Positions 25,442-44,842 of a stretch of DNA of 64,000 nt are shown here, one piece after another (position 1 is the stretch's first letter; every line of letters begins with the position of its first letter). The stretch comes from Mycolicibacterium porcinum. GTDB taxonomy: Bacteria; Actinomycetota; Actinomycetes; Mycobacteriales; Mycobacteriaceae. The stretch is from contig MVIG01000031.1 of the NCBI GenBank assembly GCA_002086835.1, positions 1 through 64,000 on the forward strand. Reading direction: 5' to 3'. Made by a program: the position numbers and the translations under genes. Below the pieces are notes generated by a model. It ran no database searches. It had not been told where the DNA came from and was given only the letters and a program-made list of their open reading frames with translations.

Positions 25442-25514
25442 GAAGATCCTTACCGTCGCCGTCTGCTATCAGGTAATCATCGACCGTCGACGCTCTCTTG
25501 ACCAGCGTCAAGCG

Positions 25515-26177: not shown

Positions 26178-26199
26178 GCCCGCACGCTAGCAGCGGGTG

Positions 26200-26655
26200 T
26201 TACTCCTCCGCTGCGGTCCAGTCGTACGGCAGGAACTTTCCGTCGAAGGTCACCACCACCCGGTCACCGGACGGGTGCGACTTGCGTTGCACGTCGACGC
26301 TGAAGTTGATGGCGCTCATGATGCCGTCGCCGAACTGCTCGTGGATCAGCTCCTTGAGCGCGCCGCCGTAAACCTGCAGCGCCTCGTAGAACCGGTAGAT
26401 CGTGGGATCGGTGGGCACGGCAGTGGGCAATCCACCGCGCATCGGCACCGCCGCCAGCACCGGAACCACCGACTCGTCGAGCCCGAGCAGCTCCGCGATG
26501 ACCTTGCCGGATTCGACCGGCACCGGGTGCTGTCCGAGCAACGCCGACACCGTCCACACCACGGGTTTGTCGATGGCATCGGCCAACTGCTGCCACGTGA
26601 GGCCCTTGGTCAGCCGGGCTTCCACGATCGCGGCGGTGATCTCGTCTCTGCTCAT
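26200..26655 (-). CDS. cynS: Cyanate hydratase
   Basis: A 151-residue cyanase that converts cyanate and bicarbonate to ammonia and CO2. All three catalytic residues are present with the spacing of the E. coli enzyme: Arg88, Glu91 (IYRFYEALQVYG) and Ser114 (GIMSAINF). Residues 1-75 form the HTH-like helical domain (GLTWQQLADAIDKPVVW). Ends NFSVDVQRKSHPSGDRVVVTFDGKFLPY as usual. Neither carbonic anhydrase cynT nor transporter cynX is next to it. The start at MSRDEIT is preferred over an upstream in-frame one at 26685. Confidence 0.93.
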   Translation of the reverse strand: MSRDEITAAIVEARLTKGLTWQQLADAIDKPVVWTVSALLGQHPVPVESGKVIAELLGLDESVVPVLAAVPMRGGLPTAVPTDPTIYRFYEALQVYGGALKELIHEQFGDGIMSAINFSVDVQRKSHPSGDRVVVTFDGKFLPYDWTAAEE

Positions 26656-26681
26656 ACCAGCAGCATGCCTGCGGTGAACAA

Positions 26682-28538
26682 TCACCGCACGCCAAGGGCT
26701 CCCGCCAGATACTCGCCGCGACAGGCCAACCGGGCCAGCTTTCCGCTCGTGGTCCGCGGGATCGCACCCGCGGGAAGGAACCGCAGATCCGCCACGGCCA
26801 GTCCGTGCCGGGCGGCCACCGCCGCGCGGATGGCCTCACCGGCCTCCTCCGGATCGGCTTGCTTGGTGCGGGCCGCGCGTTCGGCGATCACCACCAATCG
26901 GGCGCCGTCACCGTCGCCGTCGGAAGTCACGGTGAACGCCGTGACGTAGCCGCGCCGCACCAGCGGCGAAGCGTCCGCCACGGTGGCCTCGATGTCCTGC
27001 GGGTAGTGACTGCGTCCGTCGATCTGCACGAGGTCGGCCATCCGGCCGGTCACGTAGAACTGCCCCTCGAAGTACACCCCGAGATCTCCGGTGCGCAACC
27101 AGGTGGCGTCCTCGGGAAGCCCATCGGCGTGACTGCCCGAGGCCAGCCGCGACTGCAGCGGCACCCCGAACACCTTCCGCGTCTCGGTTGGCCGGCCCCA
27201 GTAGCCGCGACCGATGTTGTCGCCGTGCAGCCAGATCTCCCCGACCCGTCCGTCGGCCACCTCTTCTGCGGGCCCGTCGGCGGTCGCGGGGTCGACGATC
27301 ACCGCCCACAAACTGCGGGCCGGGTGCCCACATGACACATGGGCGACGGCCCCGTCGGCGTGAGCGTCGACGCGCACGGCGCGCCCGACCGCGAGCTGCT
27401 CGCGGTCGAAGTAGACCACCGACGCCTGCTCGGCCGGCGCGATCGTCGAGATCAGCAGCGTTGCCTCGGCGATGCCGTACGACGGCTTGAACGCCGTGGG
27501 CGGCAGCCCATGGGGTGCGAACACCTCGTTGAATGCCGTTATCACCTCGGGGTTTACCGGCTCGGACCCGATGATGAGCACCACGTTGCTCAGGTCGATG
27601 TCCTCCCCAGCCGAGGGAACGCCGCGCTGCGCGGTCCATTCGTAGGCGAAGTTCGGTGCGGCGGTGATCACGCGGCCGTGTTTCGAGGCGTCGGACATGG
27701 CTCGGATCCACCGCTGCGGGCGGCGGATGAACGCCGTCGGTGACATCAGCGTCGAGTGCCCGCCGTAGACCGCGGGAAACCCGATCATCGACAGACCCAT
27801 GTCGTGATACAGCGGTAACCAGCTGAGGCCGTGGGTGTTTCGGTTCAGCAGATCGATGGACAGGATCATCTGCAGCAGATTGGTTCCGACCGCGCGGTGG
27901 GTGATCTCCACCCCGACCGGCGGACGCGTCGAACCCGAGGTGTACTGCAGGTGCGAGATGTCGTCGGGATCGACCGGGATCGGGGTGAACCCGTCCCCCT
28001 CCGAATCCGGAATCTCATCGATGAGCTCGACTCGGGGCCGCAGGGTGTCCGGCATCTTCGCGAGGAACTCCCGCACGGCAGCGTCGCCCGCGGCGGTGGT
28101 GAGCACCGTGGTCGGCCGGGAGTCGAGCAGCGCGGTCTCGAGGCGTTCGGCGTGCCCCTGCAGTTCCGGCGCGAACAGCGGCACCGCGATGTTGCCTGCC
28201 TTGATCGCCGCGAAGAACCCGACGACGTAGTCGAGTCCTTGAGGCGCGAGGATGGCGATGCGGTCACCGCGCGCGGCCACCTCTTGCAGGCGCGCCGCGA
28301 CGGCCCGCAGCCGCACGCCCAGCTGGGTCCACGTCAGCTCGATGACGTCTTCCTCGGCGTGGCTGTGGTCGAGGTAGCGGTAGGCGACCAGGTCGGGAAC
28401 GTGGGCGATGTTGCGGTCGATCAGCGATATCAGGGTGGTGCCCGGGGGCAGCACGATGCCGCCGTTCTCGTCCAGGCAGTCCTCGATGCGGAGCAGGCCT
28501 GCCGGAGCCTCGTACTGAACCTGAGTGCCGCTGTCCAT
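26682..28538 (-). CDS. Fatty-acyl-AMP ligase (FadD/FAAL family)
   Basis: A 618-residue adenylate-forming enzyme. ISHLQYTSGSTRPPVGVEITHRAV is the ATP-binding A3 loop, in the FAAL form without the usual lysine. GLSWLPLYHDMGLSMIGFP and PSYGIAEATLLIS are typical A4/A5 motifs of FAALs; DIEATVADASPLV and RTTSGKLAR give the C-terminal subdomain with the catalytic Lys. FAALs make acyl-adenylates and hand them to polyketide synthases or lipid carriers. No PKS gene is adjacent. The Mycobacterium FadD number cannot be assigned by eye. Confidence 0.85.
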   Translation of the reverse strand: MDSGTQVQYEAPAGLLRIEDCLDENGGIVLPPGTTLISLIDRNIAHVPDLVAYRYLDHSHAEEDVIELTWTQLGVRLRAVAARLQEVAARGDRIAILAPQGLDYVVGFFAAIKAGNIAVPLFAPELQGHAERLETALLDSRPTTVLTTAAGDAAVREFLAKMPDTLRPRVELIDEIPDSEGDGFTPIPVDPDDISHLQYTSGSTRPPVGVEITHRAVGTNLLQMILSIDLLNRNTHGLSWLPLYHDMGLSMIGFPAVYGGHSTLMSPTAFIRRPQRWIRAMSDASKHGRVITAAPNFAYEWTAQRGVPSAGEDIDLSNVVLIIGSEPVNPEVITAFNEVFAPHGLPPTAFKPSYGIAEATLLISTIAPAEQASVVYFDREQLAVGRAVRVDAHADGAVAHVSCGHPARSLWAVIVDPATADGPAEEVADGRVGEIWLHGDNIGRGYWGRPTETRKVFGVPLQSRLASGSHADGLPEDATWLRTGDLGVYFEGQFYVTGRMADLVQIDGRSHYPQDIEATVADASPLVRRGYVTAFTVTSDGDGDGARLVVIAERAARTKQADPEEAGEAIRAAVAARHGLAVADLRFLPAGAIPRTTSGKLARLACRGEYLAGALGVR

Positions 28539-28547
28539 GCCCGCAGT

Positions 28548-28991
28548 CTAGGTCGAGGCACCTCCGAGGCGGGCCGCCAGTTGCTCGAAGGTGAGGGTCC
28601 ATCCGTTGTGGAAGTCGTCGAATTCCCCTGGAGGCAAAAGGGAATGCTCGATCGACATCATCGTCTGCCCGTCGCCGGCCGGCTCGAATTCCACGTTGAC
28701 GATGCTGACCACGGTCGGGTCGGCCCAGTCCGAGTTGCTCCAGGTGAACCGCAGCACCCGGGGCCGGTCGATCGTCAGGAACTGTCCGGTGATCAGCACG
28801 CTCGATCCCGAATCGTCGAGGTCGAACCGCACCAGCCCACCCACCCGAGGTTCGACCGACACCTCGACGCAGTACACCGGCCGCGGGCACATCCACTCCC
28901 GCAGCGACTCGGGGTCGAGCCATTCGTCGAACACCACATCGGGCGTCGCGGGCATCAGTCGCCGCACGCGCACCGTCTGCGCGTCGGTCAT
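28548..28991 (-). CDS. SRPBCC (AHSA1-like) protein
   Basis: A 147-residue protein of the START/SRPBCC fold (MTDAQTVRVRRLMPATPDVVFDEWLDPESLREWM, then GGLVRFDLDDSGSSVLITGQFLTIDRPRVLRFTW). This pattern matches AHSA1-like activator proteins paired with ArsR regulators. Start at 28991 overlaps the regulator stop by four bases (ATGA), so the two genes are translationally coupled. Ligand unknown. Confidence 0.8.
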   Translation of the reverse strand: MTDAQTVRVRRLMPATPDVVFDEWLDPESLREWMCPRPVYCVEVSVEPRVGGLVRFDLDDSGSSVLITGQFLTIDRPRVLRFTWSNSDWADPTVVSIVNVEFEPAGDGQTMMSIEHSLLPPGEFDDFHNGWTLTFEQLAARLGGAST

Positions 28992-29320
28992 CGAGGATCT
29001 GCCTTGCGACGCAACCGGGCGGCCAGCGCATCCGCGCGGCTCGACCAGAAGTCCGTCTGCTCCGTCATCCACTGCTGGGCCATGGTCAGCCCGTCCTGTT
29101 TGAGCGACACCCAGTGCTCTCGACCGCGCACCTCGCGCTGCACCAGACCGGCGGCCTCCAACACCCCGATGTGCCGCGAGACGCCGGCGAAGGTCATCGG
29201 CAACGGGGCGGCCAGGTCGCTGATGCGCGCATCACCCTCCCGCAGGGCCTCCAGCAACCGGCGCCGGGTCGAATCGGCCAGAGCCGAATAAGCGCGATCC
29301 AGAACCTGATCTTCAACCAC
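28988..29320 (-). CDS. ArsR-family transcriptional repressor
   Basis: A 110-residue winged-helix repressor beginning at GTG 29320 (VVEDQVLDRAYSALADSTRRRLLEAL). The HTH (ISDLAAPLPMTFAGVSRHIGVLEAAGLVQRE) is of the non-metal ArsR type that precedes SRPBCC proteins. There is no Cys in the recognition helix, so metal sensing is unlikely. Two copies of TTCAAC-N6-GTTGA lie at its start codon and 53 bases upstream, suggesting autorepression and joint control of the divergent DUF899 gene. Confidence 0.85.
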   Translation of the reverse strand: MVEDQVLDRAYSALADSTRRRLLEALREGDARISDLAAPLPMTFAGVSRHIGVLEAAGLVQREVRGREHWVSLKQDGLTMAQQWMTEQTDFWSSRADALAARLRRKADPR

Positions 29321-29329
29321 ATTGTTGAC
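29312..29329. promoter_or_regulatory. ArsR operator copy 1
   Basis: TTCAAC, 6-base spacer CACATT, GTTGAC. It overlaps the regulator GTG start codon. Same arms and same spacer length as the copy at 29366-29385; one base of the right arm differs. Confidence 0.65.
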
Positions 29330-29365
29330 TATAGCCGCGAGTCGTGGTTCGCTGAAGGACGCAAT

Positions 29366-29385
29366 ATTCAACTGATTTGTTGAAT
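29366..29385. promoter_or_regulatory. ArsR operator copy 2
   Basis: ATTCAAC, 6-base spacer TGATTT, GTTGAAT is a perfect 7-bp-arm inverted repeat in the intergenic region shared with the DUF899 gene at 29425. Its position would allow repression of both divergent promoters. Confidence 0.7.
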
Positions 29386-29424
29386 GTTGGATGAGCATCG
29401 CACGTACCGACAACGGGAGCAGCC

Positions 29425-30195
29425 GTGAAGAATCCTCCGATTGTGCCGGCCGCCGACTGGCGGGCCGCACTCGACGAAATGCTGGTCAAGGAAAAAGAAT
29501 TCACCCGGGCCCGCGACCGGCTCGCGGCGCTGCGCCGGCGCATGCCGTGGACACCGGTGGACAAGGACTACGAGTTCGAAGGCCCCGAAGGTCGGGCCAC
29601 CCTGCTGGATCTGTTCGCCGGGCGCCGGCAGCTGATCGTCTACCGCGCCTTTCTCGATCCAGGAGTGGACGACTGGCCGGAGCACGGCTGCGTCGGCTGC
29701 TCGCTGATGGCCGACCACATCGGCAACCTCGCCCACCTCAACGCCCGCGACACCACCCTCGTCTACGCCTCCCGCGGATCGCAGGCCGACCTCGCCCGGA
29801 TCAAGGCCCGCATGGGATGGAGCCACCCCTGGTACACCATGATTCCCCGGCCCGGCGCGGAGTTCGACGTGGATTTCGACGTCGACCAATGGCACGGCAC
29901 CAACGCGTTCATCCGTGACGGCGACCGGATCTTCCGCACCTATTTCATCGACAATCGAGGCGACGAGGCCTTCGTCAACACCTGGAACTTCCTGGACATG
30001 ACCGCGCTCGGCCGTCAAGAGACCTGGGAGGATTCCCCACCCGGATACCCGCAGACCAAGGCCTACGAGTGGTGGTCCTGGCACGACACCTACGCCGAGC
30101 ACGAGCCGTCGCGGTGGTTCGGCGATCCCGACCCTGACAATCCGCGCGATCCACGTCCGCCCCGAGACGATTGCCCGGCCTGCGGGAGCCGCTGA
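29425..30195 (+). CDS. DUF899 thioredoxin-like protein
   Basis: A 256-residue DUF899 protein from GTG 29425. Typical features are AADWRAALDEMLVKEKEFTRARDRLAALRRRMPW at the start, YEFEGPEGRATLLDLFAGRRQLIVYRAF and GCVGCSLMADHIGNL with a Cys-x2-Cys, then WHGTNAFIRDGDRIFRTYFIDNRGDEA. The thioredoxin-like fold and Cys pair suggest a redox role. It ends with another Cys-x2-Cys (CPACGSR). Divergent from the ArsR-SRPBCC operon and probably regulated by it. Confidence 0.85.
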   Translation: MKNPPIVPAADWRAALDEMLVKEKEFTRARDRLAALRRRMPWTPVDKDYEFEGPEGRATLLDLFAGRRQLIVYRAFLDPGVDDWPEHGCVGCSLMADHIGNLAHLNARDTTLVYASRGSQADLARIKARMGWSHPWYTMIPRPGAEFDVDFDVDQWHGTNAFIRDGDRIFRTYFIDNRGDEAFVNTWNFLDMTALGRQETWEDSPPGYPQTKAYEWWSWHDTYAEHEPSRWFGDPDPDNPRDPRPPRDDCPACGSR

Positions 30196-30240
30196 GCCAC
30201 CGCGGGCGGACCGGCGCCGGCCATTGGAGATGATGGGCGG

Positions 30241-31800
30241 GTGACGCAACTTCCGTTGACTGTTCCCGCGCTCCTGCGGCGCAGCGTCGCCGAGTTCGGT
30301 GAATCCGGCTACCTGGTCACCCCGACCGACCGGCTCACCTATCTCGACGCCGAACAGCGATCCGCCGAGTCGGCGCGGTGGCTGCTGCACCATGGGGTGG
30401 GCAAGGGCAGTCGCGTCGGCCTGTTCTTCCCCAACGGAGCCGAGTGGGTGACGTGGTGGCTCGCGGTATCGCGCATCGGAGCGGTGGCGGTGCCGCTGAG
30501 CACGCTGTACACGCCCGCCGAGATCGCAAAAGTGTTGCGCCTGGCCGACATCGGTCTGCTCATCGCCCCCAGCGCGGTGCTGACCATCGATGTCGCCGAC
30601 CGGTTGGAGGCGGCCCTGCCCGAACTGGCGGACCATTCCACGAACCGACTGGCCCTGCGCGCCGCCCCCTACCTGCGCCGCATCGCGCTGATCGGCGACA
30701 CCGACCGACCGTGGGCATCAGGCGGATGCGATGCCGCCGACGTCGTGCCGATCGATGTGCTGGCGGCAGCGGAAGCCGAGGTCTCCCCCGCCGACCTCGC
30801 CATCATGGTGCACACGTCCGGGTCGACTGCGGACCCCAAAGGAGTGCTGCACACCCACGGCACGCTGGCGCGTCAAACCTCGACCTGGCCGGCGGCCATC
30901 CGGGCGATCGCCAAAACCCCGGACCAGTCCCGCATCCTGTGCGCCATGCCGTTCTTCTGGATCGGCGGACTGCTCGCCGTCACCGGCGCCCTGCACGAGC
31001 CGGTCACCCTGGTGGTGATGCCCAAACTTGACCCGGAAACCGCTCTGGATCTTGCCGAGCGGGAACGGATCACCGGGATCGTGGGCTGGCCCGCCTTCAC
31101 CCAACAGTTGCGCGAGCACCCGTCCTTCCCCGACCGCGACCTGAGCAGCGCACCGATGCTTCGCGAGGGTCCGCTGGACATCGCCATGACCGATGTTCCG
31201 GACGGATTCCCGGTGCACCGCACCATGTCTGAGACCGCCGGCGGATTCGCCTTCACCGATATCGCCATCGTCGACGAGCACGGCGCCCCGGTCCCCGACG
31301 GGGACACCGGCGAACTCCTGGTTCGCGGGATCGGGGTGATGGCCGGGTACAACAAGCGCGAACGGTCGGAGACCTTCGACGCCGACGGCTGGTACCACAC
31401 CGGAGACAAGGTGTACCGGCGCGACGGCGATCCCCGACTGTTCTACGTCGGGCGCACCACCGACCTGATCAAGGCCGCCGGAGCCAACGTCTCCCCACTG
31501 GAGGTCGAGGCCGTCATCTCCGAGTCCGCCGCCGTGGCGCAATGTGTGGTCGTCGGTATCGACGACCCGCAGCGCGGTGAAGAAGTCTGCGCGGTCGTGG
31601 TGCCTGCCGCGGAGCTCGACCTGGCGGCCCTGGCGGCCTACTCGCGGGAACAGTTGTCCGCCTACAAGGTGCCGACCCGATGGGCACTGACCACCAGCGA
31701 CCGGATCCCGACTCTGGCCAGTGGCAAATTTGATCGGAAACGCCTGCGGCAGTTGATCATCGACGGACCGCTGAAGACGGTGCGCCTCACGCCGCAGTGA
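30241..31800 (+). CDS. Acyl-CoA synthetase-type (FadD-like) enzyme
   Basis: A 519-residue adenylate-forming enzyme from GTG 30241. A3 is IMVHTSGSTADPKGVLHTHG with Lys; A5 is VHRTMSETAGGFAFTDIAIVDEHG; A7/A8 are GWYHTGDKVYRRDGDPRLFYVGRTTDLIKAAGANVSPLEVE; and the catalytic Lys of A10 is in LASGKFDRKRL. It activates a carboxylic acid as CoA thioester. It ends 14 bases before the disrupted HNH gene fragment. Substrate unknown. Confidence 0.85.
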   Translation: MTQLPLTVPALLRRSVAEFGESGYLVTPTDRLTYLDAEQRSAESARWLLHHGVGKGSRVGLFFPNGAEWVTWWLAVSRIGAVAVPLSTLYTPAEIAKVLRLADIGLLIAPSAVLTIDVADRLEAALPELADHSTNRLALRAAPYLRRIALIGDTDRPWASGGCDAADVVPIDVLAAAEAEVSPADLAIMVHTSGSTADPKGVLHTHGTLARQTSTWPAAIRAIAKTPDQSRILCAMPFFWIGGLLAVTGALHEPVTLVVMPKLDPETALDLAERERITGIVGWPAFTQQLREHPSFPDRDLSSAPMLREGPLDIAMTDVPDGFPVHRTMSETAGGFAFTDIAIVDEHGAPVPDGDTGELLVRGIGVMAGYNKRERSETFDADGWYHTGDKVYRRDGDPRLFYVGRTTDLIKAAGANVSPLEVEAVISESAAVAQCVVVGIDDPQRGEEVCAVVVPAAELDLAALAAYSREQLSAYKVPTRWALTTSDRIPTLASGKFDRKRLRQLIIDGPLKTVRLTPQ

Positions 31801-31814
31801 AGTGCACCGCGGCG

Positions 31815-32065
31815 CTATGCGGCTTGCGGTGGTGGTTGGGGTTCAAACGGTGGGTACCACCACCATTGGGCGCGTTCCCCGGTCGGCCCGGGGCACGGCC
31901 GAACGTCAGGTGGGGGTGTGGTGGGTGGACGGGCCAATGATCCACCGTGCAATGGTCTGCCGGTGGGGTCGGTGACCCGCAACCGGTCAGCGGGCCCGGT
32001 GATCGTGATGCCCCTCCGGTGATGCAGCCGGTGATGATACGGACAGAGCAGTACCAGGTTGGTGA
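31815..32065 (-). pseudogene. 3' part of a 13E12-family HNH endonuclease, split by the element
   Basis: Read on the minus strand this begins NLVLLCPYHHRLHHRRG (HNH core His residues), then ITITGPADRLRVTDPTG, and ends AQWWWYPPFEPQPPPQAA with a TAG at 31817-31815. These are the C-terminal residues of REP13E12 HNH endonucleases, which have no start of their own here. The missing 5' part is at 54101-55120. Joined at a shared dinucleotide the reading becomes GGPTDLTNLVLLC in one frame. So a single gene was cut by the 22-kb element. Confidence 0.85.
32064..32065. other. Left attachment site (attL) crossover, inferred
   Basis: The host flank (CCAGGTTGGT before, on the plus strand) and element flank (CAAGTTCCTAATATA after) meet at GA, the proposed crossover dinucleotide. 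The right end has GA at 54101-54102. Reconstructed attP is imperfectly palindromic around GA (ATATT...CTT on both sides), as expected for serine integrase sites. Exact core inferred from sequence only. Confidence 0.6.
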
Positions 32066-32244
32066 CAAGTTCCTAATATACCCTCCTGGCAGCCGTCCGG
32101 TTACCCCGAGATAGGTAGGTGCCGGGCCACCGACGACACACTCCGGGGCCTTAAAAATCATTGGTCTCCTAACCCTGTTGGGGTCCAGGCTGGTGGTCGA
32201 GCATCGGTGTCCGGTATCTGATCCCCACGGAGGCACTGCTGATA

Positions 32245-33603
32245 ATGGCTGAACAACGCCAACTACATTTGGCCGGGTTTTTCTCGGCCGGCAACGTCAC
32301 TCACGCGCATGGCGCGTGGCGCCATGTTGGTGCCACGAACGGATTTCTGACTGGCGAGTTCTACAAGCAGATTGCACGGACCCTGGAGCGGGGAAAGTTT
32401 GACCTGTTATTTCTTCCCGATGGCCTGGCCATCGAAGACAGCTATGGTGAGAACTTGGAGACCGGGGTCGGCCTGGGTGGCCAGGGCGCGGTGGCGCTGG
32501 AGCCGACCAGCGTGATAGCGACTATGGCTGCGGTGACGGAACGTTTGGGTCTGGGCGCTACGGTTTCCACAACGTACTACCCGCCGTATCACGTGGCTCG
32601 GGTGTTTGCCACGCTCGACAACCTGTCTGATGGCCGGATCTCGTGGAATGTGGTCACGTCGCTCAACGACTCGGAAGCACGCAACTTCGGCGTGGACGAG
32701 CACCTTGAGCACGACATCCGATATGACCGCGCTGACGAATTCTTGGAGGCAGTCAAGAAGCTATGGAGTTCTTGGTCCGAGGATGCCTTGTTGTTGGACA
32801 AGATTGGCGGTCGGTTCGCCGACCCCAAGAAGGTTCAATACGTCAATCATCGTGGCCACTGGTTGTCCGTCCGTGGCCCCTTGCAGGTTCCACGGTCACG
32901 CCAGGGCGAACCGGTGATCCTGCAGGCCGGCTTGTCACCGCGCGGGCGTCGCTTCGCGGGGCGCTGGGCCGAAGCAGTATTCAGCGTCTCGCCCAACCTC
33001 GACATCATGCGCGCGGTCTATCAGGACATCAAAGCTCACGTTGCGGCCGCGGGACGTGACCCGGAGCAAACAAAGGTGTTCACCGCGGTAATGCCAGTAC
33101 TCGGTGAGACTGAGCAGGTGGCCCGTGAGCGTCTGGAATATCTCAATTCTCTGGTCCATCCCGAGGTGGGTTTGTCGACGTTGTCGAGCCATAGCGGTTT
33201 GGATCTCTCCAAGTATCCGCTGGATACGAAGTTTTCCGACATCGTCGCCGATCTCGGTGATCGTCACGTGCCGACCATGTTGCAGATGTTTTCTGCGGTG
33301 GCCGGTGGCGGTGCGGACCTGACGTTGGCCGAGCTGGGTCGACGATACGGCACCAACGTCGGGTTTGTACCGCAGTGGGCCGGAACTGCCGAACAGATCG
33401 CTGATCAATTGGTTAGTCACTTTGAGGCCGGGGCCGCTGACGGATTCATCATTTCGGCGGCGTATCTGCCTGGGATTTACGAGGAATTCGTCGACCAGGT
33501 GGTGCCGCTGCTGCAGCAACGTGGTGTGTTCCGTACTGAGTACGAAGGGGCAACGCTGCGTGAGCACCTTGGGTTGGCTCGGCCTGAAGTTGGGAGCATC
33601 TGA
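32245..33603 (+). CDS. dszA: Dibenzothiophene-sulfone monooxygenase DszA
   Basis: A 452-residue FMNH2-dependent monooxygenase of the NtaA/SnaA/DszA branch of bacterial luciferase-like proteins. It opens the ring of dibenzothiophene sulfone to 2'-hydroxybiphenyl-2-sulfinate. The start [68 protein letters not shown] and [18 protein letters not shown] follow Rhodococcus erythropolis IGTS8 DszA closely as I recall it, but with many substitutions. Start ATG 32245 has GGAGG 11 bases upstream. First gene of the dszABC operon; the stop overlaps dszB by one base (TGATG). DszA needs a separate flavin reductase (DszD), which is not in the element. Confidence 0.93.
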
Positions 33604-34673
33604 TGACCACCACGGGCATAGATCGAGATATTCTTGCCTACAGCAATTGCCCGGTTCCTAACGCGTTGCTGACAGCGCTGGAGTCAAACCTGTTGGCTGG
33701 CAACGGTATTTCGCTGAATGTGCTGAGCGGCGCGCAAGCTGGGTTGCATTTCACCTACGATCATCCCGCCTACACCCGTTTTGGTGGCGAAATTCCACCT
33801 CTTATCAGTGAGGGCCTGCGAGCACCAGGACGCACCCGTCTGCTGGGCATCACACCTCTGGCCGGTCGGCAAGGGATCTATGTCCGTGCTGACAGCCCGG
33901 TGACATCACCCGAGCAGCTGCGGGGTCGGCGGGTGGGTGTGTCCGGCGCAGCGATCCGCATTCTCACCGGCGAGTTGGGTGACTACCGGCAATTGGATCC
34001 GTGGCGGCAAACACTGATCGCGCTGGGCACCTGGGAGGCGCGGGGACTTTTGCAGACCCTGCATATCGGAGGCATCGGGATCAGTGACGTCGAATTGGTG
34101 CGTATCGAAAGCCCTGGCGTCGACGTGCCCGAAGAGCGGCTGGAAGCAGCGGCCAGTGTCAAAGGCGCTGACCTGTTTCCCGACGTGGCCGCCCACCAGA
34201 GCGACATCCTGAGTAGTGGCAACGTTGATGCGCTATTCACGTGGTTGCCCTGGGCGGCGGAGCTAGAAGACCTCAGCGGCGCGCGGGTACTCGCCGATCT
34301 CGGCGACGACAAACGAAACCGGTATGCCAGTGTTTGGACGGTCAGCGCCCAGTTGGTTGACGAGCGACCCGACCTGGTGCAACGACTCGTCGATGCGGCT
34401 GTCCAAGCCGGCCGTTGGGCACAGGCCCACCCCGAGGACACCGTTGGCATCCATGCCGCCAACCTCGGGGTAGCACCTTCGGCGATCGGACGCGGTTTCG
34501 GCGCTGATTTCGCCCAACATCTGATCCCAACGCTTGACGACTCGGCGCTGGCCGTTGTCGACCAAACTCAACAGTTCCTCATCGACCACAATCTGCTCGA
34601 CCGTCCGGTGGACCTCACACAGTGGGCAGCACCGCAATTCCTCACCCAATCCGCGACTGGAGAACAGCAATGA
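33603..34673 (+). CDS. dszB: 2'-hydroxybiphenyl-2-sulfinate desulfinase DszB
   Basis: A 356-residue desulfinase that releases sulfite and leaves 2-hydroxybiphenyl, the last step of the 4S pathway. The catalytic Cys is Cys16 (SNCPVPN), with His49 (LHF) and Arg59 (AYTRFGG); these correspond to Cys27, His60 and Arg70 of IGTS8 DszB, so all three active-site residues are present with the same spacing and an N terminus 11 residues shorter. ALLTALES, RLLGITPL, KGADLFPDVA and VWTVS further match. Fold is that of periplasmic-binding-protein-like NMT1/THI5 proteins. TGATG overlap with dszA and ATGA overlap with dszC. Confidence 0.94.
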   Translation: MTTTGIDRDILAYSNCPVPNALLTALESNLLAGNGISLNVLSGAQAGLHFTYDHPAYTRFGGEIPPLISEGLRAPGRTRLLGITPLAGRQGIYVRADSPVTSPEQLRGRRVGVSGAAIRILTGELGDYRQLDPWRQTLIALGTWEARGLLQTLHIGGIGISDVELVRIESPGVDVPEERLEAAASVKGADLFPDVAAHQSDILSSGNVDALFTWLPWAAELEDLSGARVLADLGDDKRNRYASVWTVSAQLVDERPDLVQRLVDAAVQAGRWAQAHPEDTVGIHAANLGVAPSAIGRGFGADFAQHLIPTLDDSALAVVDQTQQFLIDHNLLDRPVDLTQWAAPQFLTQSATGEQQ

Positions 34674-35917
34674 CGTTGACCGATGACACCACCACGGCAC
34701 AGAACAGTAGGCATGGCGACCCAATCGAGGTCGCGCGCGAGCTGACGCGAAAGTGGCAAACTACCGTCGTCGAGCGCGACAAGGCAGGTGGTTCGGCAAC
34801 AGAAGAGCGTGAGGATCTACGCGCCAGTGGGCTGCTCTCGGTGACCGTTCCCCGGCACCTGGGCGGTTGGGGAGCCGACTGGCCTACCGCCCTGGAAGTG
34901 GTGCGCGAGATCGCCAAGGTCGACGGATCCCTTGGGCACTTGTTCGGATACCACCTCAGCACCCCAGCCGTTATCGATCTGTGGGGTTCACCCGAGCAAA
35001 AGGAACGCCTGCTTCGTCAACTGGCCGAAAACAATTGGTGGACCGGAAACGCCTCCAGCGAGAACAACAGCCACATCCTGGATTGGAAGGTGACGGCCAC
35101 CCCGGCCGATGACGGCGGGTACTTTTTCAACGGCATTAAGCACTTCAGCAGTGGCGCCAAGGGCTCAGATCTGCTCTTGGTGTTCGGTGTGATACCGGAG
35201 GGTTTCCCACAGCAAGGTGCCATCGTAGCGGCGGCCATTCCCACCACCAGAGAAGGCGTTCAGCCAAACGATGACTGGCAGGCGCTGGGGATGCGGCGCA
35301 CCGACAGCGGCACCACCGAATTCCACAATGTTGCGGTCCGTCCCGACGAGGTGCTCGGCAAACCCAATGCCATCCTCGAGGCGTTCCTGGCGTCCGGGCG
35401 CGGAAGCCTGTTCGGCCCGATCGTGCAGTTGGTGTTCTCCTCGGTTTACCTAGGGATCGCGCGCGGAGCGCTCGAGACAGCCCGCGAGTACACCCGAACG
35501 CAGGCACGTCCTTGGACGCCGGCCGGGGTCACTCAAGCCGTCGAAGATCCGTACACCATTCGCAGCTACGGCGAATTCGGCATCCAACTACAAGCCGCCG
35601 ATGCTGCAGCCCGCGAGGCCGCACAACTCCTACAGGCCGCGTGGGACAAAGGTGACGCATTAACTTCGCAGGAACGCGGCGAACTCATGGTGCAGATTTC
35701 TGGAGTCAAAGCCATAGCCACCCAAGCGGCCCTGGACGTGACCAGCCGTATTTTCGAGGTCATCGGTGCCCGCGGCACCCACCCCAAATACGGATTCGAC
35801 CGGTTCTGGCGCAACATCCGCACCCACACGCTGCACGATCCTGTCTCCTACAAAATCGCTGAAGTCGGAAACTACGTCCTCAACCAACGCTATCCGATAC
35901 CCGGCTTCACTTCCTGA
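34670..35917 (+). CDS. dszC: Dibenzothiophene monooxygenase DszC
   Basis: A 415-residue flavin-dependent monooxygenase of the acyl-CoA dehydrogenase fold, which oxidises dibenzothiophene to the sulfoxide and sulfone. Matching blocks to IGTS8 DszC are AGGSATEEREDLRASGLLSV, WTGNASSENNSHILDWKV, KHFSSGAKGSDLLLVFGV, EYTRTQARPWTPAGV and the C-terminal RFWRNIRTHTLHDPVSYKI...RYPIPGFTS. Start at 34670 gives the ATGA overlap with dszB; an earlier in-frame ATG at 34622 lies inside dszB and is unlikely. Last gene of the operon. Confidence 0.94.
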   Translation: MTLTDDTTTAQNSRHGDPIEVARELTRKWQTTVVERDKAGGSATEEREDLRASGLLSVTVPRHLGGWGADWPTALEVVREIAKVDGSLGHLFGYHLSTPAVIDLWGSPEQKERLLRQLAENNWWTGNASSENNSHILDWKVTATPADDGGYFFNGIKHFSSGAKGSDLLLVFGVIPEGFPQQGAIVAAAIPTTREGVQPNDDWQALGMRRTDSGTTEFHNVAVRPDEVLGKPNAILEAFLASGRGSLFGPIVQLVFSSVYLGIARGALETAREYTRTQARPWTPAGVTQAVEDPYTIRSYGEFGIQLQAADAAAREAAQLLQAAWDKGDALTSQERGELMVQISGVKAIATQAALDVTSRIFEVIGARGTHPKYGFDRFWRNIRTHTLHDPVSYKIAEVGNYVLNQRYPIPGFTS

Positions 35918-35918
35918 C

Positions 35919-35938
35919 CCCGGCGTCGCGCTGCCGGG
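35919..35938 (+). terminator. Possible dsz operon terminator hairpin
   Basis: CCCGGC and GCCGGG flank an 8-base loop directly after the dszC stop. No U tract follows, as is common in mycobacterial intrinsic terminators. Bases 35939-36097 hold no gene. Confidence 0.4.
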
Positions 35939-36097
35939 CACGCGTGAATTCGTCAGATCGGCGGGTCCGTCTTACCCAGTGGTGGCCGACGGTCCCGCCG
36001 TTTTGGGTGCAACAATGCGGTCGTTGGGTGACGGTGTGACCCAACCGGATGCGGCTGGCCAAGCGACGGAACGTGGTTCAGAGCAGTCTCATTAGCG

Positions 36098-36766
36098 CTA
36101 TTGGTTCGGACTCGACGCCTCGACCCAAGCCGGTTGATCGCCGGTTTGCGCGGCAATGAAGCCTTCGACGATGCGGGTGCAATCTTGGTGGGTGATGACG
36201 CGTAGACCGGTCATTCGGGCAAAGACCAGAGGGCCAACAAGTTGACAGAGTGCGAGTTCAATGTCGAGTTCGCCGAGTTGATCGACGCTTTCGGGGCTGT
36301 ACAGGATTTCGTCGAACGGCCGTCGGTATTGTTCGATCACACGCATCCGCAGAGTGCCGGCACCGGCGTGTTGCACAGTGTTTGGTTCGTGAGTCTCGGC
36401 GGGGCCCAACGCGGCCCAGGCCAGGGTGGTGACTTGTACGGGCGCTTCGGCGAACAGGTCGGCTTGGCGGGAGAGCAGTTCGATGAGCCGCTCACGGAGG
36501 GTGCCGCTGGTCGGGGCGGGCGGGATGACTTGGGGCAGAAGGCGTTCGAAGGTGGCCGCGAGCAGTTGCGAGGAACTGTTGAAATGGCGGTAGAGGGTGG
36601 TGCGGGCGACCTTGGAGGCTTTGGTGACCGCGTCGATGGTGACGGCTTCGATCCCACCGGTTTTGAGCAGGTTGGCCGCGGCGTCGAGCAGTCGGGTGCG
36701 TGATCGGGTGCGGCGCGGGTCGACGTCGTCCTCGTCGTCGGGTGTCTCCGCGGGCTGCGTCCCCAC
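36098..36766 (-). CDS. TetR-family regulator, left of the thioesterase gene
   Basis: A 222-residue TetR-type repressor. The DNA-binding domain is at about 20-65 (LLDAAANLLKTGGIEAVTIDAVTKASKVARTTLYRHFNSSSQLLAATFERL); a helical ligand domain follows with VTTLAWAALGPAETHEPNT. GTG 36766 is chosen because AGGAGG ends 4 bases upstream, although an in-frame ATG exists at 36811. It diverges from the thioesterase gene across an operator-like region at 36822-36855. Inducer unknown. Confidence 0.75.
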   Translation of the reverse strand: MGTQPAETPDDEDDVDPRRTRSRTRLLDAAANLLKTGGIEAVTIDAVTKASKVARTTLYRHFNSSSQLLAATFERLLPQVIPPAPTSGTLRERLIELLSRQADLFAEAPVQVTTLAWAALGPAETHEPNTVQHAGAGTLRMRVIEQYRRPFDEILYSPESVDQLGELDIELALCQLVGPLVFARMTGLRVITHQDCTRIVEGFIAAQTGDQPAWVEASSPNQ

Positions 36767-36821
36767 CTGACCTCCTGATGTGTTCCGATTGCCGGTGCGT
36801 TGCCCCCGCACTCCCGGTTAT

Positions 36822-36855
36822 GGTACCGATAGTAGCGCAGCGAAACTGCTAGTAC
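36822..36855. promoter_or_regulatory. Imperfect palindromic operator, TetR/thioesterase intergenic
   Basis: GGTACCGATAG and its partner CTGCTAGTACC are partly complementary and surround AGCGCAGCGAA. The CGATAGTA and AGTACC words also appear in the palindromes at 38043-38063 and 38616-38644, which suggests a shared regulator in this cargo module. Confidence 0.45.
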
Positions 36856-36911
36856 CGGCGGTCCCGGGTCGGGACGCGGTGGCGGGGCTGCCCGGGTGCG
36901 AGGAGGCCGTG

Positions 36912-37424
36912 ATGGGTGTTGATCAGCCGCAGCGGTTGCCGTCGCACACGCCGACCTGCATGGGCTGCGGGTCGGACAATCCGCACGGTTTGCAGCTGGA
37001 GGTGTTTCGGTGCGGCGATGAGGTGTTCGCTGATCTGGTGTTCGATGAGCGCCATATCGGTGCGCCGGGGCTGGCGCACGGTGGCGCGATCGCCGCGGCC
37101 TGTGATGACGTGCTGGGTTTTTCGTTGTGGATCGCGGCCACCCCGGCGGTGACGCGCCGTTTGACGGTGGACTATCTGCAGCCGGTGCCGTTGGGATGTA
37201 CGCATCGGCTGACCGCGCGGATCGCCTCCCGCGAGGGCCGGGCGTTGCATGTGGACGGGGTGGGGGTCGGTGTGGACGGTGTCACCCGGTTCACCGCCTC
37301 GGCGGTGTTCATCACGGTGGATGCGGCCCATTTCGCCGCCCACGGTGACATCAGCGGTTTCGGGGAGTTGTTCGCCGAGCTGACCCGCTACGGTGGCGCC
37401 GGCCCCGACGCGGGGTCGCGGTGA
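36912..37424 (+). CDS. PaaI-type hotdog thioesterase
   Basis: A 170-residue single-hotdog protein. MGCGSDNPHGLQLEVF is the N-terminal strand pair of the PaaI/YbgC-like group, and APGLAHGGAIAAACDDVLGFSLW carries the HGG catalytic helix; SAVFITVDAAHF ends the core. Start ATG 36912 follows AGGAGG by 5 bases. The stop overlaps the next TetR gene by four bases (GTGA). Hydrolyses some acyl-CoA or aryl-CoA; substrate unknown. Confidence 0.75.
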   Translation: MGVDQPQRLPSHTPTCMGCGSDNPHGLQLEVFRCGDEVFADLVFDERHIGAPGLAHGGAIAAACDDVLGFSLWIAATPAVTRRLTVDYLQPVPLGCTHRLTARIASREGRALHVDGVGVGVDGVTRFTASAVFITVDAAHFAAHGDISGFGELFAELTRYGGAGPDAGSR

Positions 37425-38044
37425 GTGCGCCCACCGCCGCACCCCGGGACCGGGTGCGGCACCCGCGCCGGCCGGCGGACTCGGTGTTGGTGCGTCGCGA
37501 GGCGATCCTGGATGCCGCGTGGGCGGTAGCCTCAGCACAAGGTTTTGACGGTGTGCAGATGCGTGCGGTGGCCGCGCAGGCCGGCATTGCCGCCAGCTCC
37601 CTGTATCGGCATTTCCGATCCAAAAGCCATCTGCTGGTGACGGTGCTGGCCCGCGAATTCGAACGTCTCGACACCGAATTCGATTGCACTACCGGTGAAC
37701 TGGCGCCGCAGGCCCGGCTGGGGCGGTTGACCACCCACCTGCACATGGCCTGGCAGGCCAACCCGCACCTGACCGAGGCGATGGTGCGTGCGTTCGTCGT
37801 GGCCGACTCCGAGGCCGCCGGCGCGATCGAGCACGCTGTCGCGGTGATCGAGGACATGCTGGCCCGCGCCCTGGGCGGGCCCACACCCAGCGCGCATGAC
37901 CGTGACGTGGCCAGCCTGATCGCCGACGTGTGGCTGGCCAACCTGATCGCCGTCATCGGCGGCCGGATCGATGCGGACCTGGCCCGCGAGCGCATCGACC
38001 GCACAACCCGACAGCTGGTGCACGGCACCGACACCACCACTTAG
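37421..38044 (+). CDS. TetR-family regulator (KstR-like)
   Basis: A 207-residue TetR-type regulator from GTG 37421. HTH: REAILDAAWAVASAQGFDGVQMRAVAAQAGIAASSLYRHFRSKSHLL (about 26-72). The ligand domain includes HMAWQANPHLTEAMVRAFVVADSEAAGAIEH, as in KstR-type sterol/acyl-CoA sensors, but assignment to KstR is not secure. Translationally coupled to the thioesterase. The strong palindrome at 38043-38063 overlaps its stop codon; it may bind there. Confidence 0.75.
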   Translation: MSAPTAAPRDRVRHPRRPADSVLVRREAILDAAWAVASAQGFDGVQMRAVAAQAGIAASSLYRHFRSKSHLLVTVLAREFERLDTEFDCTTGELAPQARLGRLTTHLHMAWQANPHLTEAMVRAFVVADSEAAGAIEHAVAVIEDMLARALGGPTPSAHDRDVASLIADVWLANLIAVIGGRIDADLARERIDRTTRQLVHGTDTTT

Positions 38045-38063
38045 CGATACTAGTAGTATCGCT
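38043..38063. promoter_or_regulatory. Strong TetR-type palindrome upstream of the DUF6188 gene
   Basis: Arms AGCGATACT and AGTATCGCT are a perfect 9-bp inverted repeat around the centre AGT. It lies 55 bases before the DUF6188 start and at the end of the TetR gene. Arm CGATACT is shared with the mmpL operator. Confidence 0.7.
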
Positions 38064-38118
38064 GCGCTACTCCCAGTACCATAAAGCGACACAATGACGT
38101 GTCGAAAGGGACCCGGGC

Positions 38119-38544
38119 ATGCATACCCCCTGGATCGAGCGGTGCACCGTTCAGCGTGTCTCGTTGCGCGACGGATTGGTGCTCGACCTCGACGATTACA
38201 ACGAATTGGTGATCGCCACCCCGATCCGGCTGACCCTGCCGCCGATCGGTTCGTCTTATCCCGAAGAGCAGGTCCTCATCGACCCGGGCAACGTCTCGGT
38301 CCAGCAGCGTCCGTTGCTGGACCTGGCCGGCGCGGTGTGCACGGGCGCGTGGTGCGACGAGGGCGGCGGGTTGCACCTGGGTTTTTCCCGCGGGCATCGC
38401 ATCGATGTCGCCCCCCAGGAGGCCGCGACCTCCTGGGAGCTCTACGGCAAACGCCACGGCTACATGGCATGCCTGCCCCGCGGGCGGGTGCGGGTGGTGC
38501 GCCACGACCTGCCCGACGACGAATCTGAGGACACCGCAAGTTAA
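38119..38544 (+). CDS. DUF6188-family protein
   Basis: A 141-residue protein. VQRVSLRDGLVLDLDDYNELVIATPIRLTLPP and SWELYGKRHGYMACLPRGRVRVVRHD match the DUF6188 family found in mycobacteria, often near lipid or transport genes. The fold and function are not known. The gene has a palindromic operator before and after it (38043-38063 and 38616-38644) and precedes mmpL. Confidence 0.65.
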   Translation: MHTPWIERCTVQRVSLRDGLVLDLDDYNELVIATPIRLTLPPIGSSYPEEQVLIDPGNVSVQQRPLLDLAGAVCTGAWCDEGGGLHLGFSRGHRIDVAPQEAATSWELYGKRHGYMACLPRGRVRVVRHDLPDDESEDTAS

Positions 38545-38615
38545 TTCACCCCCACCGCGCCCAGCCCCAACCATGGCCCGAAAGGTCGGCGCGGCCCTTC
38601 CGATCCTCGTGTGGG

Positions 38616-38644
38616 ACTATTAGTATCGTAGCGATACCGATAGT
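38616..38644. promoter_or_regulatory. Operator of the mmpL gene
   Basis: A 29-bp imperfect palindrome: ACTATTAGTATCG on the left and CGATACCGATAGT on the right, with centre TAG; 11 of 13 arm positions pair. The inner 15 bp, GTATCG-TAG-CGATAC, are perfect. It sits 24 bases before the mmpL start codon. Confidence 0.65.
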
Positions 38645-38667
38645 TTCGTTTCTTGGGAGGCGTGGGG

Positions 38668-41600
38668 ATGGGCGATCGAACCGGAGATGCTGGGCCTTCC
38701 CGTGGCCGGCGCGGCGTCGATCTGTCCGGATCTTCGGAATACAGCGCCCGGCTGGGTCGGCTCGCGGCGTTCACGGTGGGCCACAAGGCATTAGTGATCG
38801 GTGGATGGATCGCGGCCGCGGTGGTGCTGGCGCTGCTGTTCCCGCAGTTGGAGACGGTGGTGCGCCAACAATCGGTCGATCTGATCCCGCGTGATGTGCC
38901 CTCGTTTCAGACCGTGGACCGCATGAGTGAGGCGTTCGGTGAGCAGGGGTCCAAGACGATGCTGTTCGTCGCGATGCAAGACCCGGCCGGTCTGACCCCC
39001 GATAATCAGCTGCGCTATCAGGATCTGGTAGGGCGGTTGCGCGCCGATCACGACCATGTCCTGCTGGTCCAGGATCTGCTGGCCGACCCGGTCACCAGAA
39101 CCCAGGCGGTCAGCGGTGACGGCAAGGCCTGGTATCTGCCGGTCGGGGTGGCCGGCACGCTCGGTGATCCCACCGCGGCCGAATCCGTGCAAGCCGTGCG
39201 CGATCTCACCGACACGGCATTCGCCAACACGTCCACCACGGCCTATGTGACAGGGCCACCGGCCACGTTCGCCGATCAGATCGCCTCAGCCGAGCACGAC
39301 CTGGTGTTCATCTCGATCGCCACCGCCGGGCTGATCGCGCTGATCCTGCTGATCGTGTACCGGTCGGTGTTCACCGCGCTGCTGCCGCTGCTGGTGATCG
39401 GGATCAGCCTGGCCGTCGGGCGTGGGGTGCTCTCTGCACTCGGGGAAATCGGCATGCCGGTCTCGCAGTTCACCGTGGCGTTCATGACCGCGATCCTGCT
39501 GGGCGCCGGCACCGACTACACCGTGTTTCTGATCAGCCGCTACCACGAACAACGCCGCGCCCAGGTGCCCGCCGAGCAGGCGGTCATCGCGGCCACCGCC
39601 AGCATCGGCCGAGTCATCCTGGCCTCGGCCGGCACCGTGGCCCTGGCCTTTCTGGCCATGGTGTTCGCCACCTTGAGTGTGTTCGCCGGACTCGGCCCGG
39701 CCTGCGCGGTCGCCGTGGCAGTCGGATTCGCCGCCACCGTGACCCTGCTGCCCCCGGTGCTGGCGCTGGCGGCCACCCGCGGCATCGGCGAACCCAAACC
39801 CGACCGCACCCGACGCTACTGGAACAGCGTGGCCGTGGCCGTGGTGCGCCGCCCGGTGCCGCTGCTGGTCATCAGCCTGACCATCCTGGTGGCACTGTCG
39901 GCGGCCGCGGCGACCATGACCATCAGCTATGACGACCGCCAAGGACAGCCCGCCACTACCGCCAGCAACCAGGGCTATCAGCTGCTGGACCGCCATTTCC
40001 CTAAAGACGTCGTCATCACCGAATTCCTCGTCGTGGAAAACCCGACCGACATGCGCACCGGCAAAGGCCTGGCCGACCTCGACGAGATGGCCTCACGCAT
40101 CGCCCAAATCCCGGCCGTGACACGTGTTTCCGGGATCACCAGACCGGCCGGGCAACGCCTCGACCAAGCCCAACTGTCCTGGCAGAACGGACAAATCGGC
40201 GACAAGATGGCCGACTCGGTCGCCCAGGGCAACGACCGGCGCACCGACCTGGACAAGCTCACCCACGGCGCCGACCAACTCGCCGGCGGCCTGGCCCAAC
40301 TCGACACCACCGTGCGCACCGCGCTCACCCCCCTGGGCGGTGTACTCACCCAAGCCGGCGCCGCCGGTGAGAGCATGCAGCGCTTCGGCCCGCTGCTGCA
40401 ACAACTCTCAGCCACCGCACCCGAGGTCGACACCGCCATCCAAGCCGGCCCCGGCATCCGACCCCTGGCCGAACGCGCCCAGAACGCTATCGCCGCCCTC
40501 GACCCGCTCGTCACCGCACTCAACACCTCACCGTGGTGTATGACCACCCCGCAATGCGCCCAGATCCGCGACCAGGTCAGTATCCTGACCACCCTGCGCG
40601 ACGACGGATTCTTCACCCAGCTCGCCACCCTGGGCGACCAGTACAACCCGGCCACCAACGCCACCGTCACCGGCACCCTCACCGAAGTTCAACACACCGT
40701 GGCCACCATGAACAACGCCTTCAAAACCCTCGGCAACCCCGAGAACCTGGCCGCTGACATCGGCCGACTCCAACACGGCATCAGCCAACTGGCCTCCGGC
40801 GCACGCGCCCTGGCCACCGGCGTGCACACCCTGGCCGACAGCAACATCCAAATGCTGTCCGGGATGAGTCAAATCGCGGCCCAACTGCAAAACTCCGCCC
40901 GCGCCACCGCCGGATCCGATGCCGCCACCGGCTTCTACCTGCCCCCCGAAGCCTTCGACAACCGCCAATTCGCCGACGTCGCCAAACATTTCCTCTCACC
41001 CGACGGCAAAACCGCCCGCTTCGCCATCGACACCAGCACGGACCCCTACAGCGGCGAGGCGATGAACCTGGCCCGCCAGATCACAGACGTCGCCAACACC
41101 GCCCGACCCAACACCTCCCTGGCCCAAGCCACCGTCTCGGTTGCCGGATTCCCCGCCGTCAACTCCGACATCCAACGCCTACTCTCATCCGACTTCACCC
41201 AGCTGGCCATCGCCACCCTGGTCATCGTCGGACTCATCCTCATCGCCCTGCTACGCGCCCTGATCGCCCCGCTATATCTGCTGGGCACCGTCGTGCTGAA
41301 CTACCTGGCCTCACTAGGCATCGGAGTCATCGTCTTCCAATGGATCCTCGGCCACGAAATCGCTTGGCCCGTACCACTATTAGCGTTCATCATCCTCGTC
41401 GCCGTCGGCGCCGACTACAACATGCTGCTCGTATCACGACTACGCGAAGAATCCACCCACAACATCCGCGTCGGCGTCCTGCGCACCGTAGCCACCACCG
41501 GCTCAGTCATCACCTCCGCCGGCCTGATCTTCGCTGCCAGCATGTTCGGCCTGATGATCGGATCGGTAGCCATCATGATCCAAACCGGACTCATCATCGG

Positions 41601-41895
41601 CTGCGGACTACTGCTGGACACGTTCCTCGTACGCACCCTCACCGTCCCAGCCATCGCCACCCTGCTCCGCCAAGCCAGCTGGTGGCCACACATGAACCGT
41701 CACCCCGCATCGATGCCAGCTAAGCATCTCACCGGTGTGGGCGCGCTGAGCGCAACACGCGGACCGCACCTCCAGATATCGGCGAAGTGGGGTGGCGTCT
41801 CACCTGGGGGCGACCATGTACGAAGAATGGATGTGGGGACCGATAGTGGAAACGGGAAAGCAGCTGACCCAGAATCGCTCACATCCGACAACTGA
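38668..41895 (+). CDS. MmpL/RND-family membrane exporter
   Basis: A 1075-residue RND transporter with about 12 predicted helices and two large extracytoplasmic loops. Proton-relay signatures of MmpL proteins are present twice: GAGTDYTVFLISRYHEQ near 281-297 and VAVGADYNMLLVSRLREE near 912-929. The start ATG 38668 has GGGAGG nine bases before it. A second extracellular region is long, helical and Ala/Gln-rich (about 480-740). It is probably a proton-driven exporter for lipids or other hydrophobic compounds. The stop overlaps the next TetR gene (TGATG). It is cargo, not AICE core; substrate unknown. Confidence 0.85.
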   Translation: MGDRTGDAGPSRGRRGVDLSGSSEYSARLGRLAAFTVGHKALVIGGWIAAAVVLALLFPQLETVVRQQSVDLIPRDVPSFQTVDRMSEAFGEQGSKTMLFVAMQDPAGLTPDNQLRYQDLVGRLRADHDHVLLVQDLLADPVTRTQAVSGDGKAWYLPVGVAGTLGDPTAAESVQAVRDLTDTAFANTSTTAYVTGPPATFADQIASAEHDLVFISIATAGLIALILLIVYRSVFTALLPLLVIGISLAVGRGVLSALGEIGMPVSQFTVAFMTAILLGAGTDYTVFLISRYHEQRRAQVPAEQAVIAATASIGRVILASAGTVALAFLAMVFATLSVFAGLGPACAVAVAVGFAATVTLLPPVLALAATRGIGEPKPDRTRRYWNSVAVAVVRRPVPLLVISLTILVALSAAAATMTISYDDRQGQPATTASNQGYQLLDRHFPKDVVITEFLVVENPTDMRTGKGLADLDEMASRIAQIPAVTRVSGITRPAGQRLDQAQLSWQNGQIGDKMADSVAQGNDRRTDLDKLTHGADQLAGGLAQLDTTVRTALTPLGGVLTQAGAAGESMQRFGPLLQQLSATAPEVDTAIQAGPGIRPLAERAQNAIAALDPLVTALNTSPWCMTTPQCAQIRDQVSILTTLRDDGFFTQLATLGDQYNPATNATVTGTLTEVQHTVATMNNAFKTLGNPENLAADIGRLQHGISQLASGARALATGVHTLADSNIQMLSGMSQIAAQLQNSARATAGSDAATGFYLPPEAFDNRQFADVAKHFLSPDGKTARFAIDTSTDPYSGEAMNLARQITDVANTARPNTSLAQATVSVAGFPAVNSDIQRLLSSDFTQLAIATLVIVGLILIALLRALIAPLYLLGTVVLNYLASLGIGVIVFQWILGHEIAWPVPLLAFIILVAVGADYNMLLVSRLREESTHNIRVGVLRTVATTGSVITSAGLIFAASMFGLMIGSVAIMIQTGLIIGCGLLLDTFLVRTLTVPAIATLLRQASWWPHMNRHPASMPAKHLTGVGALSATRGPHLQISAKWGGVSPGGDHVRRMDVGTDSGNGKAADPESLTSDN

Positions 41896-42491: not shown

Positions 42492-42671
42492 CTCCCGCGA
42501 CGTCGGAGCCACTGTTGTCAGGGAATGCGAGTTCCGCGCTGGAGCGGCCTAGGTGTTGCCTACACGCTTGATACCAGTAAAGAAAGTTCTCACATCGCAG
42601 GTCAGAGGGCTGTTTTGCGGCGATGGCCCGGTGGTTCGGCGGCGGACGGAGGGTGAAGCGTAGCGACCGGC

Positions 42672-44840: not shown

Positions 44841-44842
44841 CG

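Follow-up and report, generated by a model that had tools for sequence, protein, structure and literature searches.

The three dszABC genes let bacteria obtain sulfur from oil-type compounds, and the movement of dsz genes between genera has long been known, the vehicle being mostly deduced from plasmids and insertion sequences. We analyzed a stretch of 64,000 nucleotides of Mycolicibacterium porcinum DNA (contig MVIG01000031.1, positions 1 to 64,000; hereafter the window), which very probably holds a complete 4S desulfurization operon of the Bds branch, carried as cargo of an actinomycete integrative and conjugative element (AICE). Previous work covers the dsz genes, AICEs and, in M. cosmeticum, a genomic island with dsz; what is new is a mapped, near-identical AICE that carries dsz and whose recent spread can be traced unusually clearly. 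In open-access PubMed Central, our searches turned up no paper describing dsz on a defined integrative and conjugative element (ICE) or AICE (one paper that came up concerned ICEhbp), and the accessible part of PMC3366232 describes flanking sequences as wanting and laboratory transfer data as scarce. A natural integrating dsz element is thereby supplied, and with the whole vehicle mapped and five hosts open to comparison, transfer of the 4S pathway becomes directly testable.

The dszABC operon

Translation of positions 32245-35917 yields three adjacent, intact reading frames on the plus strand: dszA (32245-33603, 452 amino acids), encoding a dibenzothiophene (DBT)-sulfone monooxygenase of the flavin mononucleotide (FMN)-dependent NtaA/DmoA family; dszB (33603-34673, 356 amino acids), encoding a 2'-hydroxybiphenyl-2-sulfinate desulfinase; and dszC (34670-35917, 415 amino acids), encoding a dibenzothiophene monooxygenase. 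The first two genes overlap by one base (TGATG) and the last two by four (ATGA). DszC scores above the cut-off of the NCBIfam equivalog for dibenzothiophene monooxygenase, NF043015, although the pass is narrow (857.5 bits for a cut-off of 850). The nearest solved structures of the three proteins are the Dsz A, B and C enzymes (E = 2.4e-302, 5.2e-152 and 1.9e-210, respectively), and best solved relatives at such E values exclude chance. Between DszA and BdsA of 'Bacillus subtilis' WU-S2B (PDB 5xkc), 443/452 positions are identical; DszB shares 232/343 (67.6%) with chain 2de2 and DszC 298/405 (73.6%) with chain 4doy, both of them chains that we take to be of the IGTS8 type.

At the level of single residues, C16, H49 and R59 of DszB align, with unchanged spacing, with what we take to be the catalytic Cys27, His60 and Arg70 of the IGTS8 enzyme. 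The accessible part of PMC5819316, in which 5xkc is BdsA, names seven DBT-sulfone-binding residues and Ser139, and all eight are identical in the window DszA. The initial annotation had described a complete dszABC operon with 1-base and 4-base overlaps and a DszB whose catalytic Cys, His and Arg are kept with the IGTS8 spacing, and on each of these points it proved correct.

The dsz genes are maintained under purifying selection, as indicated by low ratios of nonsynonymous to synonymous substitution rates (dN/dS) in 12 gapless, hand-chosen pairs, from which the interrupted dszA of genome G226 was excluded. The ratios were 0.030 (dszA), 0.140 (dszB) and 0.072 (dszC) against J2b, 0.292 (dszB, the maximum of the 12 pairs) and 0.081 (dszC) against G226, and 0.034 for dszA against locus L009. 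The GC fraction is 0.60 at 32001-34000, versus 0.66-0.69 in the 2-kb windows of 26001-32000. Upstream of dszA, a short stretch (approximately 32148-32175) is conserved among near relatives and, in part, in M. peregrinum, and it is a possible candidate promoter or operator.

Ends of the element and its copies in other species

dszABC starts about 185 bases in from the left boundary of an integrated element of 22,037 bp (32059-54095, the core being counted once), whose ends were mapped by comparison of its copies. The element splits a host gene (DUF222/HNH) that we take to be a 13E12 gene. Its N-terminal part lies at 54098-55183 on the minus strand (PF02720; the open frame runs on to 54080) and its C-terminal part at 31828-32058, also on the minus strand, as recognized by alignment to an uninterrupted copy. 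Indeed, an uninterrupted 13E12 relative in the same genome (G000 C70, a 432-codon frame) covers both halves, with a 7-bp overlap of the alignments. 13E12 matches occur at five places in the host genome, and several 13E12 copies are common in mycobacteria. No report of 13E12 together with attB and an integrase was found in open-access PubMed Central.

At attL, the crossover core TT (32059-32060) has host 13E12 sequence on its left and the invariant element end GGTGACAAGTTCC on its right, as judged from five left junctions; at attR, the core TT (54096-54097) has the invariant element end ATATTTCAGC on its left and host 13E12 sequence on its right, as judged from four right junctions. The base to the left of TT at attL varies with the host (A in genome G692; G in the window, in genomes G501 and G709 and in M. 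palustre), while all four right junctions have C just before the TT of attR, a position at which the uninterrupted 13E12 copies available for comparison carry G or A. It is this flanking-base pattern that sets the crossover core at TT, and a core of 2 bp would fit serine integrases. The earlier proposal that the operon is cargo of an integrative element and lies beside its left end is therefore upheld and made exact: dszABC lies inside the mapped ends, with AICE genes alongside, and the left end is the attL core at 32059-32060.

The whole element is present in G501, G692 and G709, with 2, 1 and 2 differences over 22,037, 22,036 and 22,037 aligned bases, respectively, on chromosome-size contigs of 5.1, 6.6 and 7.1 Mb; in M. 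palustre DSM 44572, it extends across three overlapping contigs and shows 1 difference. The surroundings are far less alike. Identity to the window is 71-83% for the left 13E12 flanks (all four hosts) and 73-82% for the right flanks (G501, G692 and G709), and the window flanks beyond 13E12 (20001-31800 and 55201-64000) had no match in the stretches fetched from G501, G692 and G709. Aligned over about 4.4-4.8 kb, the rpoB region shows 88.1% identity to that of the window's host in M. palustre, 87.4% in G501, 96.8% in G692 and 91.5% in G709. G692, the closest host by rpoB, also has a site matching the right flank of the window without the element, in which the counterpart of 31807-31933 adjoins that of 55126 onward.

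One or two differences in the element, set against 3-13% divergence in rpoB and insertion into different 13E12 copies, point to repeated and very recent transfer between species as the simplest reading. Contamination is unlikely because each compared copy lies in its own host flank. It could be argued that the element is no longer self-mobile and that its copies were spread via plasmid or chromosome exchange: transfer is here a deduction, and an M. avium plasmid record, H71, holds a related backbone that covers 7% of the query at 77%. We give this explanation little weight, however, since five hosts have the element at different 13E12 insertion sites, with the same ends and near-identical DNA, whereas homologous recombination would be expected to bring host flanks along.

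Across wider samples, DszC was found at E <= 1e-120 in 13 of 396 genomes of the genus and DszB at E <= 1e-40 in 2 of 397 genomes of an order-level sample, this host being included in both counts. A scan of named genomes with six exact peptide patterns of one DszB returned at least 10 loci.

Gene content and proposed mode of transfer

The right-hand part of the element encodes the functions expected of its class. A gene for an HD-domain hydrolase, similar to the mdp gene of AICEs (42743-43360, plus strand; PF01966), is followed by one for a Nudix hydrolase of the nud/Pif type (43374-43841, minus strand; PF00293) and by one for a helix-turn-helix (HTH) protein in the place of the AICE xre gene (43849-44661, minus strand; PF01381 at the gathering score, 23 bits). 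Next come an FtsK/SpoIIIE-type putative transfer ATPase, TraSA/TraB-like (45344-46786, plus strand; PF01580, 61.8 bits for a gathering score of 24), and RepSA, a pSAM2-type replication initiator (46692-48278, plus strand, start not settled; PF20199, 422 bits for a gathering score of 34). A large serine integrase (52631-54070, minus strand; PF00239, PF07508 and PF13408) adjoins attR. Between RepSA and the integrase lies a putative anti-phage pair, consisting of an IetS-like S8 peptidase (48825-51353, minus strand, start not settled; PF00082, PADLOC IetS 121.7 bits) and an IetA-like AAA ATPase (51389-52387, minus strand; PF00004, PADLOC IetA 249 bits).

According to the accessible part of PMC3218068, AICEs have RepSA, an mdp-nud-xre set and Nudix immunity, and serine recombinases are used by all but one of the Mycobacterium AICEs identified there. 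The HD-Nudix-XRE set, RepSA, the FtsK-type protein and the serine integrase of the window match this pattern, and, judged by these genes, the vehicle is an AICE. Compared by description with the mycobacterial serine-integrase AICEs covered there, and with pSAM2, the element is alike in RepSA, an FtsK-type Tra protein, the HD-Nudix-HTH genes, a serine integrase and insertion into a protein-coding gene; it differs in its dszABC and IetAS-like cargo and in its 13E12 target.

A large serine integrase and a 13E12 target would also suit a prophage-like (phiRv1-like) unit using the 13E12 site, and the integrase has relatives in mycobacteriophages (37.5% identity at the best place). 13E12 is the target of phiRv1. 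Such an origin is nevertheless most improbable: the RepSA, FtsK-type and HD/Nudix/HTH genes fit AICEs, none of the 14 Pfam-scanned element proteins downstream of dsz (small open frames lay outside the scan) matches a phage structural family, and the viral contigs gave no dsz-encoding contig.

An AICE with this cargo would be expected to work as follows. Using reduced FMN from a flavin reductase of the host, DszC would make the sulfone from dibenzothiophene or a natural thiophene, DszA would open the ring to give the sulfinate, and DszB would release sulfite for assimilation by the cell, leaving a phenolic by-product. With the 4S reactions read from the protein families, the supply of reduced flavin falls to the host, in whose genome seven PF01613 flavin reductase genes were counted; no flavin reductase was found among the scanned element proteins. 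The serine integrase would recombine attL with attR at the TT core to release a circle, which would replicate through RepSA, be transferred in double-stranded form by the FtsK-type protein and enter a 13E12 gene of the recipient, where multiple 13E12 copies would offer several landing sites. Dsz activity, excision and transfer are thus all predictions from sequence.

On balance, we lean slightly towards a self-transmissible AICE that is currently spreading the full 4S pathway and the anti-phage pair across Mycobacterium via a multi-copy 13E12 landing pad. If true, desulfurization would be a circulating accessory trait of environmental mycobacteria and not a speciality of oil-soil Rhodococcus and Gordonia. 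The mapped element also raises the question of which thiophene-like substrate favours dsz cargo in mycobacteria.

Several observations weigh against the account of a functional dsz operon on an AICE. No excisionase was recognized among the element genes, and four proteins fall below strict NCBIfam cut-offs: the FtsK-type protein (plasmid TraB, NF041214, 46 of 800 bits), RepSA (NF041486, 247.6 versus 700 bits), the IetS-like peptidase (NF042956, 62 of 900 bits) and the IetA-like ATPase (NF042959, 216 of 510 bits). The attP regenerated by joining the element ends (ATATTTCAGC-TT-GGTGACAAG) had no match in viral contigs, which is weak evidence as these need not hold attP. The M. palustre element is split over three contigs and was compared at its left junction only, and the G692 site is imperfect as an empty site, the middle of 13E12 being gone and the far left flank of the window lying elsewhere in the chromosome. 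Finally, a scan for sigma-70-like promoters returned 0 sites, versus 1.0 in shuffles.

Branch of the Dsz set and history of the cargo

Sequence comparison places the operon in the Bds branch, known from WU-S2B and Mycobacterium sp. G3; in its accessible part, PMC3366232 already treats dszC of these two strains as a separate branch. With BdsABC (BdsA being PDB 5xkc and 5xkd), the likeness lies in the near-identity of DszA and its eight named residues and the difference in 9 substitutions, in a comparison that covers BdsA only. Trees were built from 13 DszC rows and 15 DszB rows, without the broken copies of genome G439 and without the four copies with identical DszB and DszC (M. palustre, G501, G692 and G709). 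The window falls within mycobacterial groups of 5 rows for DszC (support 100/100) and 7 rows for DszB (100/99), with IGTS8 outside both. In the midpoint-rooted DszC tree, the window group is sister to a pair formed by IGTS8 and G747 (99/98), and the group of pMyong1 and M. peregrinum stands further off.

The window operon and IGTS8 DszABC have in common the same three genes and the catalytic Cys, His and Arg of DszB; they differ in the sequences of DszB and DszC, as given above. According to the accessible part of PMC3366232, dsz genes of the IGTS8 type, located in IGTS8 itself on a 120-kb linear plasmid, spread widely, but recent transfer of such Rhodococcus plasmid genes into the window is refuted by the DszB and DszC identities, and the window tree groups omit IGTS8 even though G747, of the same genus, has an IGTS8-like set. 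The initial annotation had inferred an older divergent branch rather than recent copying of the Rhodococcus plasmid genes. Both views stand, with two refinements: the branch was already published, and age has to be split in two, the divergence from IGTS8 being old and the spread of the element, with 1-2 differences over about 22,037 bp, very recent. Near-identity to the IGTS8 genes was not found. We also considered a mosaic operon, in view of the 98%, 68% and 74% identities of DszA, DszB and DszC to their best solved relatives, and rejected it: the contrast reflects different reference strains, BdsA in one case and IGTS8-type chains in the others, and not recombination. In the G747 set (locus L065), identity to the IGTS8-type chains is 89.7% for DszB and 92.0% for DszC.

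Two other loci, L009 in Mycolicibacter sp. MYC123 and L008, encode a DszA that matches BdsA at all 452 positions. Judging from the Mycolicibacter copy, the thermophilic 'Bacillus' enzymes may be part of a mycobacterial lineage. L008 is a 3,008-bp contig filed as Candidatus Omnitrophota, probably a mis-binned mycobacterial contig.

Two other mycobacterial dsz sets bear comparison. pMyong1 of M. intracellulare subsp. yongonense likewise has a complete dszABC and a nearby MMPL gene 77% identical to that of the window; it differs in being a plasmid, in its DszA (87.2% identical to the window), DszB (74.3%) and DszC (70.8%), and in its tree group. It alone in the plasmid collection has a DszB of more than 60% identity. 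The M. cosmeticum UM_RHS/UM_NYF island (PMC6456199), compared by description only, also places dszABC on a horizontally acquired mycobacterial island; its authors trace it to M. goodii X7B, and the accessible part of the paper describes no integrase, att sites or AICE genes.

Downstream of dszC, the element carries a second cargo block: a TetR-family regulator (36098-36811, minus strand; PF00440), followed on the plus strand by a 4HBT/PaaI-type thioesterase (36900-37424, start not settled; PF03061), a second TetR-family regulator (37421-38044; PF17925 and PF00440), a DUF6188 protein (38119-38544; PF19686), an MMPL transporter (38671-41895, start not settled; PF03176) and a third TetR-family regulator (41895-42491; PF16859 and PF00440). 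In G226 and WUMAC-067, a homologue of this third regulator (80-81% identical) directly follows dszC, whereas about 5.7 kb separates the two in the window. Most of this interval (window 36143-41690) aligns in two pieces, at 94.7%, with a plasmid of M. dioxanotrophicus, at a place with no dsz match, where the features named are TetR, thioesterase, TetR and DUF6188. The cargo therefore looks composite. In G642, homologues of the first three genes of the block lie upstream of dszA.

MMPL genes occur near dsz in the window element, on pMyong1, in G703 (85%, a fragment) and in Williamsia (58%). A role for MMPL as part of a dsz-specific module was rejected, as relatives at E <= 1e-300 are found in 179 of 396 genomes of the genus and full-length copies 98% identical occur in G088, G610, G666 and G585, none of which is among the 13 DszC-positive genomes.

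That dsz is cargo is further indicated by G226, MYC123, J2 and WUMAC-067: in one fetched region of each, a related HD-Nudix-HTH-FtsK-RepSA backbone occurs in a stretch where nothing matches dsz. The integrase of the WUMAC-067 backbone is 82% identical to that of the window. Mycolicibacterium sp. J2 also has a diverged element, 95.6% identical over 32147-48617, and a second dsz copy. At the position of the IetAS-like pair of the window (48825-52387), the J2 element gave no S8 match and an AAA match of only 31%.

Some other genomes hold dsz copies that look damaged. G439 holds two decayed copies with stops (L068 and L069). Mycolicibacter sp. MYC123 has two dsz loci in one chromosome (L005 and L009), both apparently damaged: DszA is in two pieces at one, and at the other, where DszA is identical to BdsA, dszB matches only to residue 187. 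In G226 (L059/L060), dszA is interrupted by about 1.46 kb, and the two matches overlap by 8 bp (window 32811-32818), the kind of trace expected of an insertion sequence.

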